From an uncultured beta proteobacterium (GTDB taxonomy: Bacteria; Pseudomonadota; Gammaproteobacteria; Burkholderiales; Burkholderiaceae_C), in assembly GCA_903930255.1 (NCBI GenBank), contig CAIYYA010000249.1, positions 1 to 64,000 on the forward strand: 64,000 nt of DNA. The letters are read 5' to 3'. Shown here piece by piece: positions 25,580 to 62,582 of this stretch. Every line of letters starts with the position of its first letter. The stretch's first letter is position 1. A program made the translations under genes and the position numbers. The notes under the pieces were generated by a model. The model was not told the origin of the DNA and did no database searches. It saw only the letters and a program-made list of their open reading frames with translations.

Positions 25580-26286
25580 GCGGACACCAAAGCCTCAGTT
25601 TGGGTCGTGAGCCGGTAGCCAGCGCCGCGCACCGTTTCGATCATGCGCCCGGCGTTGGGGCCAAGGGCTTCGCGCAAGCGCTTCACGTGCACATCGACCG
25701 TGCGCTCTTCAATGAACACATGGTCGCCCCAAACCCGGTCGAGCAATTTAGAGCGGCTGTGCACGCGCTCGGAATGGGTCATCAGGTAATGCAAAAGTTT
25801 GAACTCGGTGGGACCCAATTTCAGCATTTGTTCGTTAAACGAGACCCGATAAGTTTCTGAATCAAGCAGCAAAGCCCCCACCGCGATGCTGCCCTGCACC
25901 CGCTCGGGCGCACGCCTGCGCAATACAGCCCGCACACGCGCCAGCAGTTCTTTGGTTGAAAAAGGTTTTGAAATGTAATCATCGGCACCCGCATCCAGCC
26001 CGGCAACCCGATCCATTTCTTCGCCACGGGCTGTCAGCATGATGATCGGAACCGATTTGGTGCGCGGGTGCGCACGCCAGCGTTTGGCCAGCACCAAACC
26101 GCTTTCGCCGGGCAGCATCCAGTCCAGCAAAATCACATCGGGCAAAACCTCGTCGAGTTCGCGCTGAGCCGAGGCACTGTCCATCGCCAGCGTCAGGCGA
26201 AACCCGTTATGCCGCAGATTGATGGCGATCAGCTCAGCAATGGCGGGTTCATCCTCCACCACCAAAACCCGGGGCTCATGCCTCAT
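25576..26286 (-). CDS. phoB: phosphate regulon response regulator PhoB
   Basis: 236 aa. The receiver has VVEDEP, phospho-acceptor DWMLPGESG (near 54) and the conserved Lys in KPFSTKELL. The winged-helix domain has LGPTEFKLLHYLMTHSERV and TVDVHVKRLREAL. It binds the Pho boxes listed below. The stop overlaps the PlsC-type gene and the start overlaps phoU, both as ATGA. The kinase PhoR, usually next to phoB, is not encoded anywhere in the window. Confidence 0.95.
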   Translation of the reverse strand: MRHEPRVLVVEDEPAIAELIAINLRHNGFRLTLAMDSASAQRELDEVLPDVILLDWMLPGESGLVLAKRWRAHPRTKSVPIIMLTARGEEMDRVAGLDAGADDYISKPFSTKELLARVRAVLRRRAPERVQGSIAVGALLLDSETYRVSFNEQMLKLGPTEFKLLHYLMTHSERVHSRSKLLDRVWGDHVFIEERTVDVHVKRLREALGPNAGRMIETVRGAGYRLTTQTEALVSA

Positions 26287-30940: not shown

Positions 30941-32803
30941 CTAGCGAGACGCATTCACCAAAATCGCGTCCCGCACATACAAGCCCTCGCCTGCGGTTTT
31001 TGCATCATGTTTAGCACGCGCAGCAACCGAAGCCACCTGCTCGGCTGTGGCAAATTCACAGCATGAAATTTTTACAGCGCCGATCGACAAAGTTGTTAGC
31101 GGAAAAAATCGCGGAACTCCATGTCGATCGTCGGCCTGAATGCCGCCTGCCAGGCGGGCCGATTCATCAAAAAGTGACACGGCCAGTTTGCCAAACTCGG
31201 CGATGATTTCTTGACATTGTGCTTGCCAGTTATCGCTTTGATACAAGATGATGAAATCATCGCCCCCGACATGTCCGACAAAATCGCGCTGCGGATCGCA
31301 ATGCGCGGAAATAATCCGTGCGACCAGCCGAATCATTTCATCACCTCGCCAATAGCCATATTGGTCGTTGAATGGTTTGAAGTTATTCAGATCGGCGTAG
31401 CAAGCAACAAACTCAGTGCCACTGCCCAAGAGTCGTTCAATATGTTGACTAATCGGAATATTGCCCGGTAAAAATGTCAATGGATTGGCGTGCCGAGCCA
31501 CCTCGATGCGCGTCTCGGTGACCGAGCGCACCAGTTGCTCTCCGGTTCCCAAGCCCACATAGCGGCCATTTTCTGTCACGATAAAACCATCGGACAGATA
31601 GCGCTGATCATCCGAGGTCAATATGCCGATCAGTTCATCGACGTTATGGTTGCGCTCAATCAAACGGGGCGCCAAATTGGCATGCACCAGACAATGCTTG
31701 CGCCCCCAAACTTCCCGGTAGTACAACTTGCTAAATTCATTCATGAATTGCGACCGGTTAATGATTCCAATCGGCCGAGTGCCGTCAACCACAGCGACCG
31801 CATGCAGTGTTTCATGCTGCAAGAACAGGCTTGCCAGCTCATCATTGGTGCTGCTAAGGCCAACGCAAGGGGCATCCAACACAGCCAGACGACTGAGCGA
31901 GCCAGCACTGGATGCGCGGCGCAGTTCCGGAAATACAGAAACGCGGCGATCACGCATCAGGCCAAGCACTTTTGCCTCGATATTTGCCAGTGGCATGACT
32001 TCGGGGCGACCCAAAAAATAGCCTTGACCATAGCTAATTCCCAAATCGCGCAAGACACGCATGTCACTCTCGTTCTCTATGCCTTCAGCCACCAGGTCGG
32101 TGTCAAAAATTGCGGCAATTTGTTGCAATGCCTGGATTGTTTTGAGTTTGTCGGCGTGCTGACTGATGTTTTTGGTGAAGTATTTGTCAATCTTCACATA
32201 TTCGGGTTTGAGTTGTGACCAAAGCCGCAAACTCGACCGACCATCGCCAAAGTCGTCCAAAGCGAGTGACACACCCACTGAGCGAATTTCTGCTACCACT
32301 TTTGCTAAGTGATCCATGTCGGCAACCCGTTCGTACTCGGTAATTTCAAGCACCAGCATTCTTGGCATGACACCAAAAGCACTGATGAGTTCGATCAGTG
32401 GCATGGAGCCACAGTGCTTGATGACCTGCACCAGAACCTCTGCACTGATGTTGACAAACAGACGGCCTGACTCACACAAATCACCCCAGCGCACCAGTGC
32501 CGCAGCAACACAGGTGTTCTCGAACTCGAAATTCAACTGCTCTCGGGCAGCAGCAGCTAACAAAAAATCGGGTGTGTGAAACGATGTATTGAGCGGCCCC
32601 CTGATCAACGCTTCATGTGAATGGATGGAAGCATCGGCCAGTGCAACAATCGGTTGAAATACCGGGTAAAGCGCGTTGCTGCGCAAAATTTTGGCCAGTG
32701 GCCCGGTGCCCTGACGCACGGCGAGCGAAGACACCACGCCAGGGATCGATTTGACGAAGAAGTTAGGGGTGATATTGAGCGCTTGCGCAGGTTGACTTGA
32801 CAT
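30941..32803 (-). CDS. EAL-CBS-GGDEF cyclic di-GMP protein
   Basis: 620 aa, cytoplasmic. The EAL domain is N-terminal (HEALIRGP near 63, LALDDFGDG, VAEGIEN), a CBS-like pair occupies ~310-440, and GGDEF is C-terminal (GGDDF near 512). EAL catalytic residues look largely present, so hydrolysis of c-di-GMP is possible; GGDDF departs mildly from GGDEF, so synthesis is uncertain. A Pho box about 150 bp upstream suggests control by PhoB, linking phosphate supply to c-di-GMP. It lies 117 bp upstream of pstS, on the same strand. Confidence 0.88.
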   Translation of the reverse strand: MSSQPAQALNITPNFFVKSIPGVVSSLAVRQGTGPLAKILRSNALYPVFQPIVALADASIHSHEALIRGPLNTSFHTPDFLLAAAAREQLNFEFENTCVAAALVRWGDLCESGRLFVNISAEVLVQVIKHCGSMPLIELISAFGVMPRMLVLEITEYERVADMDHLAKVVAEIRSVGVSLALDDFGDGRSSLRLWSQLKPEYVKIDKYFTKNISQHADKLKTIQALQQIAAIFDTDLVAEGIENESDMRVLRDLGISYGQGYFLGRPEVMPLANIEAKVLGLMRDRRVSVFPELRRASSAGSLSRLAVLDAPCVGLSSTNDELASLFLQHETLHAVAVVDGTRPIGIINRSQFMNEFSKLYYREVWGRKHCLVHANLAPRLIERNHNVDELIGILTSDDQRYLSDGFIVTENGRYVGLGTGEQLVRSVTETRIEVARHANPLTFLPGNIPISQHIERLLGSGTEFVACYADLNNFKPFNDQYGYWRGDEMIRLVARIISAHCDPQRDFVGHVGGDDFIILYQSDNWQAQCQEIIAEFGKLAVSLFDESARLAGGIQADDRHGVPRFFPLTTLSIGAVKISCCEFATAEQVASVAARAKHDAKTAGEGLYVRDAILVNASR

Positions 32804-32953: not shown

Positions 32954-32971
32954 GTGTCAGCCTCATGACAA
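32954..32971 (-). promoter_or_regulatory. Pho box upstream of the EAL-GGDEF gene
   Basis: The minus strand reads TTGTCAT-GAGG-CTGACAC, 11-bp spacing, and TATTGT lies ten bases downstream as a -10. The leader to the ATG at 32803 would be about 130 nt. Confidence 0.65.
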
Positions 32972-33577: not shown

Positions 33578-34438
33578 TCAAGCTGTAATAGCCTCTTTGC
33601 TGTGTGATGGCACGTGGGTTGAATACACAGGCGCCCACTGCACCAACTCCAGACGACCATCAAAATGCTCAACCAAAGCAGTGCAGCTCTCAACCCAATC
33701 ACCATCATTGCAATAAAGAATGCCGTTGATGGTGCGCATTTCGGCGCGGTGAATGTGCCCGCACACAACGCCCTGATGGCCTCGGCGACGCGCTTCATTG
33801 GCCACGGCTTCTTCAAAGTCAGTCACATACATCAGCGCTTTTTTCACCCTTTGTTTCAGGTAAGCTGAAAGCGACCAATAGGGCAAACCGAGTTTCGCGC
33901 GCCAATGGTTCAGGTGCCGATTGAGTTTGAGTGTGAATTCATACAGGTTATCGCCCAAATATGCGAGCCACTTCGCGCACTGAATGACACCGTCAAAATA
34001 ATCGCCATGTGTAACCCAAAGCTGGCGGCCATCAGCGGTTGTGTGGATGGCATCAGTCAGCACATCAATACCGCCAAACTGGTGTCCGACGAAATGACGT
34101 GCAAATTCATCGTGATTGCCTGGCACATAGATCACCTGACACCCCTTGCGAGCGCGACGCAGCAGTTTTTGCACCACATCGTTGTGTGACTGTGGCCAAT
34201 ACCAACCACGGCGCAATTGCCAGCCGTCCACAATATCGCCGGCCAAATAGAGAAATTCGCTGGGGTGATTTTTCAAAAAATCCATCAAGGCGTCGGCTTG
34301 ACAGCCAGGTGTGCCCAAGTGCAGATCCGAAATAAAAATTGATCGGTATTGCTGCGCGACTGCGTCTTCTGTGTCTGGCTCGCTGGCCGTCTCGGCAGCA
34401 ACATTCCAAGGCCCCATGGCTTGGAAAGCCGCTCGCAT
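33578..34438 (-). CDS. plcP: PlcP-type metallophosphoesterase (phospholipase C candidate)
   Basis: 286 aa, calcineurin-like. Metal-binding motifs are FISDLHLGT, LAGDIVDGW, VPGNHDE and CGHIHRAEM. The signature YWPQSHNDVVQKLLRRARKG is shared, as I recall it, with the family often annotated UDP-2,3-diacylglucosamine diphosphatase that includes Sinorhizobium PlcP, which cleaves phospholipids during phosphate starvation. The ATG at 34438 overlaps the olsB stop (TGATG), so the two are coupled behind a tandem Pho box; this favours PlcP over LpxH. The track start at 34531 lies inside olsB. Confidence 0.78.
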   Translation of the reverse strand: MRAAFQAMGPWNVAAETASEPDTEDAVAQQYRSIFISDLHLGTPGCQADALMDFLKNHPSEFLYLAGDIVDGWQLRRGWYWPQSHNDVVQKLLRRARKGCQVIYVPGNHDEFARHFVGHQFGGIDVLTDAIHTTADGRQLWVTHGDYFDGVIQCAKWLAYLGDNLYEFTLKLNRHLNHWRAKLGLPYWSLSAYLKQRVKKALMYVTDFEEAVANEARRRGHQGVVCGHIHRAEMRTINGILYCNDGDWVESCTALVEHFDGRLELVQWAPVYSTHVPSHSKEAITA

Positions 34439-35286
34439 CAGGCACCCAAAAAGTGTTTGCGATAACGCGGTGGCAAATCGCCAATGCGCATCAGCATGGG
34501 TAAATCTGCCGTATTGAAATCCGGATCCCAAGCGGGTGCGCCCAGCACTTTGGCGCCCAAACGCAAATAACCCTTGATCAGAGCGGGTGGCTCTACGTCT
34601 AAAGTTGCATCGAGTTGTTCCACCGGCAAGGCCAGGCGCGGACGCACATGGAATTCAATCCCAGCGAGATGGCTGGTCTGCAGTTGGCGCCAAATACTCG
34701 CCGCCACATCGCCGCTGACGATGCCGTTGTGCAACATGGGAATGCTGGCGCAACCAATCATGGTGTCGAGCTTGTTGCGCACCATAAACTCAGCCAACGC
34801 GCCCCACAGCGCCATGATGACACCCCCATGGCGATAGTTGGGATGCACGCAACTGCGCCCGAGTTCGACCATGCGCTCACGCAGACTGCGCAAACGGGTT
34901 AAATCAAACTCGAGGTCGCTGTAAGTGCTGCCCACTCGCTTGGCTTGGGCAGGTGTGAGAAGCCGGTATGTGCCCACCACTTGCTGGCTAATCTGGTCAC
35001 GCACCAGCAAATGCTCGCAATAGTCATCAAAGAAATCAACATCGTGATCCGGGATTGATGTGCTCAAACGTGCGCCCATTTCCTGCGCGAAAACCTGGTA
35101 TCTCAGGTGCTGTGCCTGGCGAATTTCGTCCGCATGTCGAGCCCACGAAACCGTGAGACCGCTGCGCTCCATTTGCGGGACCAACGGCTCACTGGCTCCT
35201 TGGAAATGTGTAAAAGGTCGATGAAGTGACCCCCGAGGCATCGACACCAGAGACACCGGAAATGTAGGGTTAGGCAGTTCTTTCAT
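34438..35286 (-). CDS. olsB: OlsB-type ornithine N-acyltransferase
   Basis: 282 aa GNAT-fold protein of the hemolysin-like acyltransferase group. LRYQVFAQEMGA, DYCEHLLVRD, VGTYRLL, VELGRSCVHPNYRHGGVI and MIGCASIPM match OlsB-type enzymes, which make lyso-ornithine lipid from ornithine and 3-hydroxyacyl-ACP. The tandem Pho box ~58 bp upstream and translational coupling to a PlcP-like lipase fit phosphorus-free lipid synthesis under phosphate limitation. Another N-acyltransferase role in the same superfamily cannot be excluded. Confidence 0.8.
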   Translation of the reverse strand: MKELPNPTFPVSLVSMPRGSLHRPFTHFQGASEPLVPQMERSGLTVSWARHADEIRQAQHLRYQVFAQEMGARLSTSIPDHDVDFFDDYCEHLLVRDQISQQVVGTYRLLTPAQAKRVGSTYSDLEFDLTRLRSLRERMVELGRSCVHPNYRHGGVIMALWGALAEFMVRNKLDTMIGCASIPMLHNGIVSGDVAASIWRQLQTSHLAGIEFHVRPRLALPVEQLDATLDVEPPALIKGYLRLGAKVLGAPAWDPDFNTADLPMLMRIGDLPPRYRKHFLGA

Positions 35287-35343: not shown

Positions 35344-35383
35344 ATGACGCTCTGATGGCGTCTTTATGGCATTTTGGTGACAC
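35344..35383 (-). promoter_or_regulatory. tandem Pho boxes of olsB-plcP (four half sites)
   Basis: On the minus strand GTGTCAC, ATGCCAT, ACGCCAT and GCGTCAT start exactly 11 bp apart, i.e. two adjacent PhoB dimer sites. CAACAT lies ten bases beyond the last one as a possible -10. Confidence 0.75.
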
Positions 35384-35387
35384 CTCT

Positions 35388-36140
35388 TTAAGCGTTGTCA
35401 AGCCACTGCCGCACCTGTTCAATTACCCAGGGAGCCGCGTCTAGCGGCAGGTCATGCCCGGCAGTGGGATGCAGTCGCAGGGCACATTGCCAATGCTCTG
35501 CCAGCACCTTGGAACAATGGACATTGACCAATTGGTCAGCCTCGCTGGCCAGCAACAAAACGCGCGCAACGCAGCGATCGGGTGTTGCACAAAATCGTGC
35601 GGCAGCAATCAATTGACGAAACGCATTGGCACGCGAAACTGGATGCGCTTGGCGTAATGCCAGCCATTGCGACAGCACGTCGCCATGAGCATGCTGCGTT
35701 GTCATGCGCAAAATAGCGCTTTCCCATTGTTGCGCCGATGTATCCAGCAGGATCAGTTTCAACAGGGTGATGTAATTGGGGCTGCGCAGCCGTTCATAAA
35801 ATGGACTAAATGGGCGCATGCTGGTGTTGATAAGAACATGCGCAGTGACCTCGTGCGGATAGACTTGCGCCCACGCTACAACCACCATGGCACCTAATGA
35901 CATGGCCAAAAAGTGATACGGTGGCGCAACACTTTGCGCCTTCAGTTGCTGTCGACAATGTTCCAGCATGACCTGCACAGACACCGGGCTGCGCTGCTGG
36001 AACAGCTGGCCGTTGCCGGGCAAGTCCAGAGCCGTCACCCGGCTAGCAGGCATTGCTTGCTCAAACTGCGTCAAAAATTCGCCCCAATGGCCACTTTCGC
36101 GCGTCAGCCCGCGTAGCAATATCCAGTTGTGTTGGTGCAT
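35388..36140 (-). CDS. alpha/beta hydrolase
   Basis: 250 aa. The nucleophile elbow is AMSLGAM (Ser near 83) and the late GHDLPLDAAPW supplies the catalytic His; LLLASEADQLV is the acid region. Substrate is unknown. It is translationally coupled to the M14 peptidase gene (TGATG at 36138-36142), so the two likely act together. It ends just before the olsB promoter, on the same strand. Confidence 0.8.
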   Translation of the reverse strand: MHQHNWILLRGLTRESGHWGEFLTQFEQAMPASRVTALDLPGNGQLFQQRSPVSVQVMLEHCRQQLKAQSVAPPYHFLAMSLGAMVVVAWAQVYPHEVTAHVLINTSMRPFSPFYERLRSPNYITLLKLILLDTSAQQWESAILRMTTQHAHGDVLSQWLALRQAHPVSRANAFRQLIAAARFCATPDRCVARVLLLASEADQLVNVHCSKVLAEHWQCALRLHPTAGHDLPLDAAPWVIEQVRQWLDNA

Positions 36141-37153
36141 CAGTACCAGTCTTCCAAAGCTTGCACATGCTGTTGTGCGCGGGCTTCATGGCTGGGCAGC
36201 CACAGATGATGGCCACAGGCTGCGCGCGAAAGAAAATCAAGCAGCAGTTGATGCTGTCGCAGCACCCGCTGTTGGCGATGCTCGATCAAGGGGTTAAAAA
36301 TGCCGTGACGTGAAAACAATTGCCGTGGATTTTTCTTCACCCACAACCAAGAACCCATCTCCAGCGTTAAAGGCAAAAAAATTCGCTCGGCATGCTGACT
36401 TGCTTGCAAATACAAATAGTCCCATACATCGCCATGCGCCAGGTACTGAAGACTTTGCGGCTCAATGATGTAGCGATGATGACTATGCGACTGCACAAAA
36501 ATGCTTTTCAAAGCATGCATCTCTGCCAAATGCGAAATTGGCGCCCGGGTATGTGCAAACGGAAACCAGATGCGGTCGCTGGTGCCAAAACCCGAATGGC
36601 AATCCACGCTCAGACTGAATTTGCGCGACAGTAGTTCGGTGCTCACTACTTCGCACAAAGCCTGATTCTCAAGTTCCATGGCTTTGTTTTTAAGACCCCG
36701 GTACCAAGGTAACCCGGCACTAAAACGCTGACCTCCGACTAAAAATGGCACTTGCTCACGCGCCTCAACTGGTGCGTTTCGCATCAAATCAACACCCAAA
36801 GGATTGGCACGCGTACCCATTGCCATGCCGCCCGGGTTGACGATCGGCATAAAAACGAGACGCACAGATTCAAGCTGACTGCGCAGGCTGCTGTCCCATT
36901 GAAGGCGCATCACCAGGCTTTGCAAATAGGCGATCACCACGCCTGCGCCGATGCGCTCAAGCCCGTGAACACCACCGAAATAGCCAACTGCTGGCACATC
37001 GGGTGAGTCGCTCCCCAAAGTGATCACATGCACCGGGTAAGTTTCACCATTGGGCAAATTGACCACACAGGCAACACGTGCCTGCAACCAACCATCGCCC
37101 AGTTCAATGATGCGCTCCAGAGCGACGAGTTCAGGCAACTTGGATTGATTCAC
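36140..37153 (-). CDS. M14-family zinc carboxypeptidase-like protein
   Basis: 337 aa. GGVHGLERIG gives the HxxE zinc pair and DCHSGFG the third ligand, as in M14/succinylglutamate desuccinylase-like enzymes; TLEMGSW may carry the catalytic Glu. No signal peptide is visible, so it is probably cytoplasmic. Coupled to an alpha/beta hydrolase, it may form a small deacylation or amide-hydrolysis module. The nearby Pho box points the other way and is unlikely to drive it. Confidence 0.8.
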   Translation of the reverse strand: MNQSKLPELVALERIIELGDGWLQARVACVVNLPNGETYPVHVITLGSDSPDVPAVGYFGGVHGLERIGAGVVIAYLQSLVMRLQWDSSLRSQLESVRLVFMPIVNPGGMAMGTRANPLGVDLMRNAPVEAREQVPFLVGGQRFSAGLPWYRGLKNKAMELENQALCEVVSTELLSRKFSLSVDCHSGFGTSDRIWFPFAHTRAPISHLAEMHALKSIFVQSHSHHRYIIEPQSLQYLAHGDVWDYLYLQASQHAERIFLPLTLEMGSWLWVKKNPRQLFSRHGIFNPLIEHRQQRVLRQHQLLLDFLSRAACGHHLWLPSHEARAQQHVQALEDWY

Positions 37154-37159
37154 AATGGC

Positions 37160-37177
37160 TTGTCACACCGTTGTCAT
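37160..37177 (+). promoter_or_regulatory. Pho box reading toward a 39-codon ORF
   Basis: TTGTCAC-ACCG-TTGTCAT on the plus strand is as good as the pstS site. TAACGT lies ten bases downstream, with TATAGC slightly nearer. The only plus-strand reading frame it can serve is the short ORF at 37225. Confidence 0.7.
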
Positions 37178-37224
37178 GGGTTATAGCTAACGTGAACATT
37201 TTCACGATTCAACGCTTACCAACC

Positions 37225-37344
37225 ATGTGGCACAAATCTGTTTTATTTCGATTAATCACCATTTCTGCTTGCCTGGCTTGGGGTTTTCTTGAGTTTCTTG
37301 CTTTGCAGCGCGCACGTTTTGCCTTCCGCCGTCTGAATCAATAG
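37225..37344 (+). CDS. small hydrophobic protein behind a Pho box (39 aa)
   Basis: ATG at 37225 opens MWHKSVLFRLITISACLAWG and ends ALQRARFAFRRLNQ, TAG at 37342-37344. It has a basic start, one short membrane helix (LITISACLAWGFLEFLAL) and a strongly basic tail, the layout of a small inner-membrane protein. It is below the ORF-track cut-off. A Pho box and -10 place the probable transcript start near 37200. No clear Shine-Dalgarno sequence is seen, and no family is recognised with confidence. Confidence 0.5.
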   Translation: MWHKSVLFRLITISACLAWGFLEFLALQRARFAFRRLNQ

Positions 37345-50005: not shown

Positions 50006-51268
50006 ATGCCAACTACATTTTTTATAGTTATCGCGGTGCAATTCATATCGACCATTGCCGACAACGCATTCTTGATCGTGGCCATTGCCCGTGTCATTGA
50101 GCTTTCTGCCGGGGCCTGGGTGATCCCGATCCTGAAGCTCAGTTTCACCTTGTTTTATGTGTTGCTGGCGCCGCTGGTTGGGCCGTTAGCCGATGCTTTC
50201 CCAAAGGGCAGGGTCATGGTTTGGGCCAATTTTCTGAAGGTCTGCGCCGTAACACTTTTGTTGACCGGTGTTGACCCGGTGCTGGCACTGGCCTGTGCCG
50301 GTTTTGGTGCGGCCATTTATGCGCCCGCCAAATACGGGCTGATCACCGAGTTGTTGGACGCCAAAGATCTCGTCAAAGCCAATGGCTATTTTGAAGGCAT
50401 CACCGTGAGCGCCGTTTTATTGGGCACTGCCTTGGGCGGAATTCTGGTCAGCCCAGTGATGCCAGTGCTGGATTTGCCCCTTCAGACGCCTTATTGGGCT
50501 AATACCAGCACGACGCTGATCGCTGGCATGTTGTGCCTGTTGGGTATTTACAGCACGGCGACACTGATGAACTTTGGCATCAAAGACAGTGGCGCACGTT
50601 ATTTGCCGCATGACATTCACCCGGTGCTGCTGATCCGTCGTTTCTTTCAAGAAAACCGAGTACTCTGGCGCGACCCGCTGGGCGGTTTGTCGATGTCCGT
50701 CACCACCCTGCTGTGGGGCGTTGGCGCCACCTTGCAATTGATCGTGTTGCGCTGGGCCATTGAATCACTTGGGCTGGCGCTCAACCAAGCGGCCTATTTG
50801 CAAGGCATCACGGCAGTGGGGGTGGTTATTGGGGCCATTTTGGCCAGTCGAAGCGTGACCCTGATGGAGGCGCCCAGGTTGCTGCCCCTGGGGCTGATCC
50901 TTGGGCTCATGGTGCCGCTGATGTTGGCGGTTCATTCCGTCTATTGGGCAGCGGTCCTGCTGGTTCTTGTGGGCGCACTGGCCGGATATTTTGTGGTGCC
51001 GATGAATGCCTTGCTGCAATACCGTGGCTGCACCTTGCTCACGGCCGGCCGCTCGATTGCGGTGCAGGGCTTCAATGAAAACGCCGGCATGTTGGTGATG
51101 TTGGCGCTGTATGCCGTAGCCACTGCAACCCATGCGCCATTGCACATCCTGATCTGGTGTTTTGCCGTGATGGTCACACTCACGATGAGTGCCATCTACC
51201 TTGCACACCGCAAGCTGCCATCCATCATTTGCCGGGTTGAACTGCCGTGTACCCCAAGCCGTGGCTGA
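50006..51268 (+). CDS. lplT: MFS transporter of the LplT (lysophospholipid) type
   Basis: 420 aa, about 12 helices. QFISTIADNAFLIVAIA at the N-terminus, LADAFPKGRVM as the MFS A-motif, YAPAKYGLITELLDAKDLVKANG and GYFVVPMNALLQYRG are characteristic of LplT, which flips lysophospholipids inward for re-acylation. No aas-type acyltransferase is adjacent. It is followed 37 bp later by the glycosyltransferase gene. Confidence 0.85.
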   Translation: MPTTFFIVIAVQFISTIADNAFLIVAIARVIELSAGAWVIPILKLSFTLFYVLLAPLVGPLADAFPKGRVMVWANFLKVCAVTLLLTGVDPVLALACAGFGAAIYAPAKYGLITELLDAKDLVKANGYFEGITVSAVLLGTALGGILVSPVMPVLDLPLQTPYWANTSTTLIAGMLCLLGIYSTATLMNFGIKDSGARYLPHDIHPVLLIRRFFQENRVLWRDPLGGLSMSVTTLLWGVGATLQLIVLRWAIESLGLALNQAAYLQGITAVGVVIGAILASRSVTLMEAPRLLPLGLILGLMVPLMLAVHSVYWAAVLLVLVGALAGYFVVPMNALLQYRGCTLLTAGRSIAVQGFNENAGMLVMLALYAVATATHAPLHILIWCFAVMVTLTMSAIYLAHRKLPSIICRVELPCTPSRG

Positions 51269-51305
51269 ATTTGAATCACTTTGAATAACTAATTGGTCTT
51301 TGCTT

Positions 51306-52514
51306 ATGAACAATAAACTCAAACTTGCGCTGGTGACCGAAACTTTTTCACCCGAGGTCAACGGCGTCGCCATGACCCTTGGCAAATTGGTGGACGGCAT
51401 GCTGCAACGCGGCCACACCGTGCAAGTGGTGCGTCCTCGCCAAAACGACGAAGATGCCTTACTGTCCCGCGACGGCCTGCAGCACGTGTTAGCACAAGGT
51501 ATCCCCATACCCACCTACCCGGAGCTGCGTTTTGGCCTGCCCATCAAGGGTCGGTTGATCCGGCTCTGGCAAGCAAGCCGTCCCGACATCGTGCATGTGG
51601 CCACTGAAGGCCCTTTGGGTTGGTCGGCAGTGGCAGCGGCAAAGCACCTTGGTTTACCGGTATCGAGTTCCTTTCACACCAACTTTCATACCTACTCGCA
51701 GCACTACGGCATCGGTTGGATCAAGAACCTGATTGAGAATTACCTGCGTAAATTTCACAACCGTACCTTGACCACCATGGTGCCCACCCAAGCCATGCTG
51801 CACGCCCTGCAAAGCCGAGGTTTTAATAACCTGAGCTTGCTGTCTCGAGGTGTCGATACCCGGCAGTTTTCACCCGCCAAACGCTCCCACACACTGCGTG
51901 AATCTTGGGGCATTGGCCCCAACGATCTGCTGTGTTTGCACGTAGGACGACTGGCGAAAGAAAAAAATATCGGTGCGGTGATGGCTGCATTTCAGGCCAT
52001 TCAAGCCCATCAGCCGCGTGCCAAACTGGTCTTTGTGGGTGATGGCCCTTTGCGCAAATCGCTGGCGCAAACCCACCCTGACTGCATCTTTAGCGGAACC
52101 CAAAAAGGCGAAGCCCTGGCCACCCACTACGCCAGTGGCGATTTGTTTTTGTTTCCGAGCTTGAGCGAAACTTTTGGCAACGTAGTACCCGAAGCACTGG
52201 CCAGTGGGCTGGCGGTGCTAGCCTTTGCCAATGGAGCGGCGCTGGAACTGATCCGCAGCGAGCACAACGGCGTTGTGCTGCCATTGGCAGATGAGCAGGA
52301 TTTTGTCACCGCAGCCGTGGCTCTAGCCAGCAACCCTGACAAGCTGCAGCGTCTGCGACAAAACGCAGCAGCCAGCGTGGTCCACCTAGGCTGGGATGCC
52401 ATTTATGACAGTTTTGCGCATACGCTATCGGTGCTGGTGCCGCAACACGGCAAAGCACCCATTCAGACATCGGCCACTGGCGCATCGCTCGCCATCAATC
52501 AGACCAGTGCATGA
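51306..52514 (+). CDS. GT4 glycosyltransferase (candidate lipid glycosyltransferase)
   Basis: 402 aa from the ATG at 51306. LALVTETFSPEVNGVAMTL is the N-terminal acceptor-side motif; SSFHTNFHTY, LHVGRLAKEKN, FVGDGPLR and FPSLSETFGNVVPEALASG form the GT-B/GT4 donor site. Related enzymes include mannosyl and diacylglycerol glycosyltransferases, among them Agt enzymes that make glycolipids under phosphate stress. That role is attractive beside plcP, ugd and lplT but unproven; no Pho box is seen. The 3' end overlaps convergent psd by 20 bp. Confidence 0.85.
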   Translation: MNNKLKLALVTETFSPEVNGVAMTLGKLVDGMLQRGHTVQVVRPRQNDEDALLSRDGLQHVLAQGIPIPTYPELRFGLPIKGRLIRLWQASRPDIVHVATEGPLGWSAVAAAKHLGLPVSSSFHTNFHTYSQHYGIGWIKNLIENYLRKFHNRTLTTMVPTQAMLHALQSRGFNNLSLLSRGVDTRQFSPAKRSHTLRESWGIGPNDLLCLHVGRLAKEKNIGAVMAAFQAIQAHQPRAKLVFVGDGPLRKSLAQTHPDCIFSGTQKGEALATHYASGDLFLFPSLSETFGNVVPEALASGLAVLAFANGAALELIRSEHNGVVLPLADEQDFVTAAVALASNPDKLQRLRQNAAASVVHLGWDAIYDSFAHTLSVLVPQHGKAPIQTSATGASLAINQTSA

Positions 52515-53376
52515 GAGCCTGGCCCATGCGAATATTGCTGTCCTGGGTCAACCCATCGCACAAGGTAAAACCCTTGGGTGCCAGCACAATCACCGTTGAG
52601 CCATGCTGAAACCAGCCCATCTCCTGGCCTTTTTTAAAGCCGGCATGGCAGGCGATGACCTTGGGGCCCGCATACTTCAAATGCAGCAGAACATCCAGAA
52701 AATGCAGCCGGATGCTGGCTACCAAGATGGCCGCAACGGGCACCAAGGCAATGCGCTTGCCATGCAGCGAACCTTGACCATCAAGACGCGTTTGAAGATA
52801 CGCCCGCTCGTTTTTACAAAACAGTTTTTCAACCCGCTTCAAGGCAATCGGATTGACGTTCCAGGTATCACCCGAAAAATAGCGCACTTTTTCGACCATG
52901 CAATCAAAGGGGGCATGAAACCGGTGGTACATGCTCGAAGTCAGCCGCAGTGTCACAAAGTAGCCGTCTTGCCAGTCTTCAATGTGCTGCTCATCGCCGA
53001 TCAAATCTTGCAGGGCATACGGAAATCCTTTGGCCTGGAACACTTGGCCGCGCGCAATCGGGCCGTGGGCTCCCACGATGGCATCCACCGGACTGGACAA
53101 ACTATCTACCGCCATGCTGATCGGCCGCACGCCGTCCTTAAGCTCGCGCGTAAAACAGTCGTGCATGCTGGTGAAGTGGCTTTTTTTAGCCTCGCTCAGA
53201 TCAAGCGCCGAAAAAAACTTCCAGATACCAATCGACAGATCACGTACCCAAGGGTGCTCGATTTTGCTGAATCGCCCCATAAATTGGGTCAGCCAGCGAC
53301 GCGGCAGGCGATTGGTCAGCAAAAAGTTCAGGTCTTCCTGACTCAGTATTTTTTGAATGTGGTGGCGAAAGCTCAT
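52495..53376 (-). CDS. psd: phosphatidylserine decarboxylase proenzyme
   Basis: 293 aa. SSPVDAIVGAHGPI, HRFHAPFDC and the autocleavage site FQHGSTVIVL (Ser near 256, which becomes the pyruvoyl group) define the family. It makes phosphatidylethanolamine at the inner membrane. It is divergent from the aminotransferase gene across ~45 bp and convergent with the glycosyltransferase gene. Confidence 0.93.
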   Translation of the reverse strand: MSFRHHIQKILSQEDLNFLLTNRLPRRWLTQFMGRFSKIEHPWVRDLSIGIWKFFSALDLSEAKKSHFTSMHDCFTRELKDGVRPISMAVDSLSSPVDAIVGAHGPIARGQVFQAKGFPYALQDLIGDEQHIEDWQDGYFVTLRLTSSMYHRFHAPFDCMVEKVRYFSGDTWNVNPIALKRVEKLFCKNERAYLQTRLDGQGSLHGKRIALVPVAAILVASIRLHFLDVLLHLKYAGPKVIACHAGFKKGQEMGWFQHGSTVIVLAPKGFTLCDGLTQDSNIRMGQALMHWSD

Positions 53377-53420
53377 GGGGCAAATGCTCGTTGTAAATAT
53401 GACATTGAAAGGTGATATTC

Positions 53421-60438: not shown

Positions 60439-61761
60439 TCAACGGCCAATCGCGTAATATTCAAACCCCATACTGCGTACCCATTGGGGGTCATAGAGAT
60501 TTCGGCCATCGAAAATGACAGGGGTTTTAAGCAAGCTCTTGATGAGCTCAAAATCGGGGCTGCGAAACTCTTTCCACTCAGTGACAATAATCAAAGCGTC
60601 AGCGTCGCGCAGCGCAGCAGTTTGAGAGTCTGCGTATTCAATGCCATCCATCTGGGAAAACGCAAGTTTTGCCTGTTCAATCGCCGCCGGATCGTAAGCA
60701 GACACAGTTGCACCGGCAGTCAGTAAGTCGCGCACAACTGAGAGGCTACTTGCTTCGCGCATATCGTCGGTGTTGGCCTTGAAAGCCAGCCCCCAAATTG
60801 CGAAATGTTTTCCTTCAAGCTGATCGCCAAACCGGGCTTTTACCTTCAAGCCCAGAATGTGTTTTTGAGCTTGATTGGCCTCCTCAACTGCTTGGAGCAC
60901 TTTGAGCTGCAGGCCCCCATCTTGAGCAGCCGATCGGATCAGCGCTTTGACATCTTTGGGAAAACAAGAGCCACCATAGCCCGCACCTGCATATAAAAAG
61001 TCGTAGCCAATACGGGGATCGCTGCCGATACCTTTTCGCACATGTTCTATGTCTGCGCCCAGTTTTTCAGCCAGATTGGCAAGCTCGTTCATAAAGCTGA
61101 TGCGTGTAGCCAGCATGGCGTTGGCCGCATATTTTGTCAGTTCTGCACTGCGAATATCCATCAAAATCAGTCGGTCGTGATGCCGCTGAAAAGGTGCATA
61201 CAGCGCCCGCATGTTCAGAGCAGCCTGCTCATCGTCGCAACCCAGAACGATGCGACCAGGGCGCATAAAGTCTTCGATGGCAGCACCCTCCTTCAAAAAC
61301 TCAGGATTGGCAACCACACTGAAAGGGGTATTGACAGCGCGTAAATCAAGTTCTGCCTTAACGGCCTTGCGTACTGCATCTGCAGTACCAACGGGCACGG
61401 TACTTTTGTCCACCACAACCTTGTAGTCGTTCATATATTTACCGATGTTGCTTGCCGCTTGCAACACATACTGAACATCGGCGCTGCCATCTTCTCCAGG
61501 AGGCGTACCGACTGCGATGAACTGAATTGTCCCAAAGTGGGTGGCTCGTTCAATGTCATCCGTGAAATGCAGACGCCCCCCGTTGACGTTGTGTTTGACC
61601 ATCTCATTCAGACCGGGTTCGTAGATTGGAATGTACCCATCCTGTAATGATTTAATTTTTTGAGGATCCGTATCAAAACAAACCACATCGTTACCGACTT
61701 CAGCCAAGCACGCGCCTGTGACCAGGCCGACATAGCCCGTACCAATGATGGTTATCTTCAC
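60439..61761 (-). CDS. ugd: UDP-glucose 6-dehydrogenase
   Basis: 440 aa. [19 protein letters not shown] is the NAD-binding loop and [18 protein letters not shown] holds the catalytic Cys; [14 protein letters not shown] closes the active site. It makes UDP-glucuronate for polysaccharides or glycolipids. The GTG at 61761 is preferred to the track start at 61800, with AAGGGCAG upstream and the family N-terminus beginning there. A weak Pho box lies 48 bp upstream. Confidence 0.93.
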
Positions 61762-61808: not shown

Positions 61809-61826
61809 GCGAAAGTTTTGTGACAG
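61809..61826 (-). promoter_or_regulatory. weak Pho box upstream of ugd
   Basis: The minus strand reads CTGTCAC-AAAA-CTTTCGC, 11-bp spacing. The first half is perfect and the second matches five of seven positions. Confidence 0.4.
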
Positions 61827-61872
61827 TTCGTTGGCAAAACGATTTGCATTTTTTGTTTTAGCCTCATCTCGC

Positions 61873-61890
61873 TTGTCACCGAAGTGTCAT
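61873..61890 (+). promoter_or_regulatory. Pho box of the 207-aa membrane protein gene
   Basis: TTGTCAC-CGAA-GTGTCAT with TACATT exactly ten bases downstream (61901-61906), the same layout as the pstS promoter. A ribosome-binding site (AAGGAGATGCT) then precedes the ATG at 61959. Confidence 0.82.
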
Positions 61891-61958
61891 GCCCAATTTC
61901 TACATTACTCTTTAGTCGAGGCCAACCCGTGTCGCGACAAGCAACTTAAGGAGATGCT

Positions 61959-62582
61959 ATGGGTGATTTTTTGAAGAAGATTGAGATATTGCAGCAAGAC
62001 GATCATCGTTTCTATCACCAATGCCGTATCAACCAGACGCTGCACTTGATCAGTGCGCTCAGCTTCCTGGTCGCCTATGCCTTGCTTTTTGTTAACCCGG
62101 CAGCAGCCGGCATGGTGGGTTGGCTGGTGGGCATGGTGACGCGTCAATCCGGGCATCTATTTTTTGAGCCACGTGGCTACGACTCCATTAATCAAGCAAC
62201 CTATGCGCACAAGGAATCCATCAAGGCGGGCTACAACATGCGCCGCAAGGCTGTCTTGATTTCGGTATGGTTGGCTCTGCCGACTTTGCTTGCCTTGAGC
62301 CCAAGTTTGTTTGGATCCATCGAACCCGCTGTGGGGCTGAGCGGCTGGATGCATGATGTGGGTCTTTTATGGTTGGCTTTGGGAGCCGGTGGCCTGCTGT
62401 TTCGCACCCTGCATCTGTTTTTCCTGCGCGGCCCAGCATGGGGCATGGCTTGGTTCTGCAAAATTTTGCTAGACCCCTTTCACAATGTAGCCAACTACTG
62501 GAACTCGCCGATTGCCTTGCTCCGCGGGCAGCGCTATGACCCCTTGGATTCATGCAAAAAAGAGCTCCACACCAGCCTGTGA
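61959..62582 (+). CDS. PhoB-regulated membrane protein of unknown function
   Basis: 207 aa with about four helices (LISALSFLVAYALLFV, AAGMVGWLVGMVTRQSG, AVLISVWLALPTLLAL, DVGLLWLALGAGGLLF). It carries several His/Asp residues at membrane edges: GHLFFEPRGYD, NQATYAHKE, RTLHLFFLRG and LLDPFHN. This pattern loosely recalls membrane di-iron hydroxylases or DUF962/Mpo1-like proteins, but no family is recognised with confidence. A near-perfect Pho box and strong ribosome-binding site indicate expression under phosphate limitation. Confidence 0.82.
   Translation: MGDFLKKIEILQQDDHRFYHQCRINQTLHLISALSFLVAYALLFVNPAAAGMVGWLVGMVTRQSGHLFFEPRGYDSINQATYAHKESIKAGYNMRRKAVLISVWLALPTLLALSPSLFGSIEPAVGLSGWMHDVGLLWLALGAGGLLFRTLHLFFLRGPAWGMAWFCKILLDPFHNVANYWNSPIALLRGQRYDPLDSCKKELHTSL

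Follow-up and report, generated by a model that had tools for sequence, protein, structure and literature searches.

The locus described here occupies positions 61873–62582 of the window, that is, of the whole 64-kb stretch of betaproteobacterial DNA that was analysed, and consists of a promoter and the gene of a membrane protein, with the following features:

61873–61890, + strand: Pho box made of two repeats of 7 bp each in 11-bp phase, 0 mismatches to TGTCAYN5TGTCAY
61901–61906, + strand: −10 element TACATT, ten bases past the Pho box, as in pstS
61948–61953, + strand: ribosome-binding site AAGGAG, from the sequence
61959–62582, + strand: 207-residue membrane protein of what we call a distantly Mpo1-like family

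The Pho box reads TTGTCAC-CGAA-GTGTCAT, and the 207-codon frame opens with the ATG at 61959, 3′ of AAGGAG, and closes at 62582. Since the pstS promoter of the same window reads TTGTCACATCGCTGTCAC-N10-TACATT, the two promoters match exactly in layout and −10 hexamer, and the mirroring of pstS by a PhoB promoter, proposed in the preliminary description, is confirmed with its box, spacing, TACATT and positions. The gene thus has a direct-repeat Pho box at the −35 place, 10 bp before the −10 element, as is used to recognize members of the Pho regulon. The window holds three exact copies of TGTCAYN5TGTCAY, where 0.09 would be expected (none of 100 shuffles reached three), and five copies of the box followed by N10-TANNNT when one mismatch is permitted, where 0.03 would be expected.

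The promoter is conserved among homologues. In the 160 bases 5′ of each of 104 dereplicated homologues (coding strand), a Pho box with at most two mismatches was found for 69, as compared with 2.8 ± 1.6 in dinucleotide shuffles (largest value, 8). With at most one mismatch the count was 26/104 (0.27 in shuffles), and a box with TANNNT 9–11 bases further on preceded 28/104, where 0.09 were expected. Control tiles carried a Pho box in 0.8% of cases when drawn at random from other Pseudomonadota loci and in 1.8% when drawn from elsewhere in the same loci. This conservation carries more weight than the one site in the window, and control of the membrane protein gene by PhoB at low phosphate is well supported by these sequence comparisons.

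The His/Asp clusters that had been described as conserved-looking are indeed conserved: D14, D15, R17, H20, H29, H66, E70, D75 and D172 are invariant among 54 homologues and H16 and H175 nearly so, and in a set of 96 homologues His20, His29, His66 and Glu70 are without variation while His16 and His175 vary rarely. The homologues are ~200 residues long. An AlphaFold model built with 54 sequences (pLDDT 90), which superseded a 14-sequence model (pLDDT 78), predicts an all-helical protein with ~5 membrane-spanning helices. Comparison of this model with solved folds and viral models gave no match at E 0.001, and a sequence search of solved structures returned no relative. A GTDB scan yielded at least 589 confirmed candidate loci, which belong, among the matches listed, mainly to Betaproteobacteria, with additional members in Bradyrhizobium, Sphingomonas and Ectothiorhodospiraceae. 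A very divergent second copy of Bradyrhizobium type (L151) has Tyr in place of His16 (FDDYRFYHQ) and retains His20, His29, His66 and Glu70. Bradyrhizobium plasmids (L206; AP014659.1) carry a copy amid transposases, ~51% identical to the window protein and annotated as ‘Blr4581 protein’. The copies in metagenome bins named Chitinophaga and Opitutus (L038 and L064) nest among betaproteobacterial ones and are probably misnamed or misbinned.

The sole Pfam match of the window protein is to the Mpo1-like family (PF06127, DUF962; 17.5 bits, E 0.0044), below the gathering score of 24 bits, and no NCBIfam model matched it; the initial statement that no family was recognizable was therefore fair. PF06127 is matched by 49/54 homologues, mostly weakly (best E 1.4e-5), and three family members found in whole-genome searches reach 24.0–24.6 bits. 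The likeness lies in a His-X8-His motif followed ~37 residues later by GH-X3-E, between hydrophobic helices: the spacing is HX8H-X36-HX3E in the family and HX8H-X37-HX3E in a short bacterial Mpo1-like protein (L102), and the window protein itself has both HX8H and GHX2-3E at the family spacing. In a profile–profile comparison the His-Asn-His stretch alone aligned (probability 68, P 5e-5) and global alignment failed. Mpo1-like proteins differ in having ~105 residues as compared with the 207 of the window protein, which adds a conserved C-terminal half, and in their promoters, since a Pho box precedes most family members but only 1/43 canonical Mpo1-like genes. We call the window protein a distant relative of the Mpo1-like family rather than a member. 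Yeast Mpo1 is a 2-hydroxy fatty acid dioxygenase; PMC9624242 describes it as a dioxygenase that depends on Fe(II) and acts in fatty acid metabolism.

The fatty acid hydroxylase superfamily (PF04116) shows some resemblance too, its members likewise being membrane proteins with conserved histidines. This superfamily takes in the ornithine-lipid hydroxylase OlsE. The assignment was rejected: Pfam searches at E up to 10 gave no match to PF04116, and of its signature, HX3-4H plus two HX2-3HH motifs, the window protein has one HX3H (residues 16–20) and no HX2HH. A hydroxylase in the usual sense, as had been suggested, is accordingly not borne out, the nearest relatives being, weakly, the Mpo1-like dioxygenases. 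The LpxO/OlsC-type hydroxylase family PF05118, a possible source of 2-hydroxy acids, had no match in the genome, a result to be read with the fact that the control gave no match either.

In relatives, the family gene has two neighbours, which encode a class III aminotransferase of 558 residues and a protein resembling phosphatidylserine decarboxylase. Both are present in the window, 7 kb from the membrane protein:

52495–53376, − strand: pyruvoyl enzyme resembling phosphatidylserine decarboxylase, with the motifs SPVD, YHRFH and HGST, 74% identical to its orthologue at locus L055
53412–55115, + strand: class III aminotransferase, GSA-aminomutase-like, with an N-terminal hydrophobic segment and the PLP-lysine motif GKTLGGG, 75% identical to its L055 orthologue, which matches Pfam Aminotran_3

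The L055 decarboxylase scores above the cut-offs of PF02666 and TIGR00163. The self-cleavage motif HGST is retained in the decarboxylase and the PLP lysine motif in the aminotransferase. Another contig of the genome (C367) has a further, distinct decarboxylase gene, so that the one in the window is a paralogue. The divergent starts of the two genes lie ~35–45 bases apart (53377–53411 in the window, 4098–4142 in L055), mostly without a Pho box.

Of 399 Pseudomonadota genomes, 26 have the family; exactly these 26 have the decarboxylase, and all but one of them, along with a single further genome, have the aminotransferase, i.e. 25 family carriers plus one (Fisher P below 1e-36, uncorrected for phylogeny); since the carriers span 11 genera, independent events must be far fewer than genomes. 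Within a set of 61 near relatives, genomes lacking the family had no close match to either the aminotransferase or the decarboxylase, and the order family gene–aminotransferase–decarboxylase is held from Rhodoferax-type Betaproteobacteria to Sphingomonas. Two genomes (G002 and G023), probably near-copies of each other, contain the family without the other two genes. The window copy falls in a supported subfamily from Betaproteobacteria, whose members often occur as a second copy in addition to the one linked to the aminotransferase; all 20 genomes picked for carrying this subfamily have the aminotransferase. Judged by genome content, the three genes are a near-obligate trio, a linkage that is new in this analysis and goes beyond the preliminary description. 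A literature search found no description of the family or of the trio. In several genomes two family paralogues lie on one contig, with the aminotransferase beside one of them (L007 and L016, L029 and L058, L040 and L082, L034 and L093).

Further genes for lipid metabolism and phosphate response surround the trio in the window:

25609–26274, − strand: PhoB response regulator (TIGR02154, 327 bits, cut-off 296)
33578–34531, − strand: calcineurin-like phosphoesterase (PF00149) downstream of the OlsB-like gene, named PlcP-like by resemblance
34438–35286, − strand: OlsB-like ornithine N-acyltransferase (PF13444; below OlsB model cut-offs), Pho box at 35366–35382
50006–51268, + strand: MFS protein, LplT-like by sequence resemblance alone, a recurrent neighbour in relatives
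51300–52514, + strand: GT4 glycosyltransferase, diacylglycerol-glycosyltransferase-like, orthologue of the L055 GT4, itself below the cut-offs of lipid glycosyltransferase models
60439–61761, − strand: UDP-glucose 6-dehydrogenase (Ugd; Pfam/NCBIfam), divergent neighbour of the membrane protein gene
61809–61836, − strand: divergent Pho-like half-sites in 11-bp phase facing ugd, 2 mismatches

The window also holds pst genes, phosphatases and a 5′-nucleotidase. The OlsB-like and PlcP-like genes (33578–35286, −) probably form a PhoB-controlled lipid-remodelling operon, and both, together with the GT4, Ugd and LplT-like genes, recur around the family when neighbours are located in tblastn searches that use the proteins of the window as queries. 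A methyltransferase gene lies upstream of the family in Bradyrhizobium and Sphingomonas (PmtA-like by resemblance; the Sphingomonas record says methyltransferase). Pho boxes with at most two mismatches precede 33/48 GT4 genes and 8/13 ugd genes (window and relatives), as against 9/33 aminotransferase and 5/56 decarboxylase genes. PhoB therefore seems to gate not the trio as a whole but the family protein together with the genes for glycolipids, and the aminotransferase and decarboxylase are not simply co-regulated with the family. GT4 and Ugd are together needed for glucuronosyl-diacylglycerol (Semeniuk 2014, as cited in PMC6445935 and PMC9239053). Pho boxes, GT4 with Ugd and the nearby OlsB/PlcP-like pair all recall PhoB-controlled lipid remodelling through PlcP/Agt-type glycolipids and OlsB ornithine lipids, but we encountered no aminotransferase, decarboxylase or Mpo1-like component in the literature consulted on those pathways. 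The earlier suggestion of a lipid-modifying enzyme of the phosphate response, for example a hydroxylase, is well supported as regards lipids and phosphate, given the conserved promoter and these surroundings, but not as regards a hydroxylase in the usual sense.

We consider it about an even call that the protein is a PhoB-run integral membrane enzyme, a divergent relative of Mpo1, which oxidizes a lipid in one pathway with the aminotransferase and the decarboxylase. At low phosphate, PhoB would turn on the gene; the product, which is related to the Mpo1-like Fe(II) dioxygenases but is long and divergent, would most likely hold a metal by its invariant His20, His29, His66 and Glu70 and oxidize a membrane lipid or a fatty acyl or head group. 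In the same pathway, the membrane-anchored class III aminotransferase would transfer an amino group and the phosphatidylserine-decarboxylase-like enzyme would decarboxylate an alpha-amino acid. The trio would probably synthesize, or alter, a membrane lipid that carries an amine, within a phosphate-saving remodelling of the membrane and alongside the lipid glycosyltransferase with Ugd and the OlsB/PlcP pair. The promoter with its conservation, the conserved residues, the gene linkage and the co-occurrence are shown by sequence, regulation and lipid context are well supported by genome comparisons, and the helical membrane fold is predicted; the metal, the oxidation, the substrate, the product and the order of steps are what we infer.

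The similarity to Mpo1 being sub-threshold only, the protein might act in the same pathway as a metal-dependent or acid–base lipid enzyme other than an oxygenase, e.g. a hydrolase, isomerase or head-group transferase, that shares an old fold with Mpo1. The ~130 extra C-terminal residues, the further invariant residues K85, E86, K89, R96, K97, R149, K168 and D172 and the failure to find a solved relative would fit such an enzyme; however, the core HX8H...GHX3E spacing is that of Mpo1-like proteins, whose characterized yeast member is an Fe(II) dioxygenase (PMC9624242), and we regard this alternative as rather unlikely. A non-catalytic role, as an anchor, flippase or subunit by which the aminotransferase and the decarboxylase are held at the membrane, would agree with the near-obligate co-occurrence and the predicted helical membrane structure, but the aminotransferase bears its own N-terminal hydrophobic segment, the invariant His/Glu/Asp clusters look catalytic and the PhoB control of the gene is separate from that of its partners, which makes such a role improbable. 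Finally, the density of Pho genes in the window (pst, phosphatases, 5′-nucleotidase) could mean that a phosphate-stress membrane protein with no role in lipids adjoins the lipid genes merely through the clustering of Pho genes. This seems highly improbable in view of the joint travel of the three genes in Bradyrhizobium-type genomes and Sphingomonas, where the surroundings are different.

Replacement of phospholipids decides the life of freshwater and soil bacteria at low phosphate. To our knowledge, the known replacement routes (glycolipids, ornithine and betaine lipids) make no use of the trio. It is tempting to speculate, though we give this broader proposal somewhat less than an even chance, that the trio is an undescribed bacterial pathway to a new amine-bearing membrane lipid and that in Betaproteobacteria PhoB gates its oxidative step by phosphate. 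The family consists of unnamed proteins distributed from Rhodoferax and Rubrivivax to Bradyrhizobium, and the trio offers a concrete, testable gene set for the missing lipid.

Further Pho boxes lie elsewhere in the window. At 37161–37193 (+), a perfect box with N10-TANNNT precedes no convincing gene on the same strand, only a 57-codon frame at 37171–37344, and may drive a small RNA or serve the reverse-strand gene at 36140–37153. A one-mismatch box at 32954–32970 lies ~150 bases upstream of the gene for a GGDEF/EAL-like protein (30941–32803, −; domains named by eye), suggesting that cyclic di-GMP is under phosphate control.
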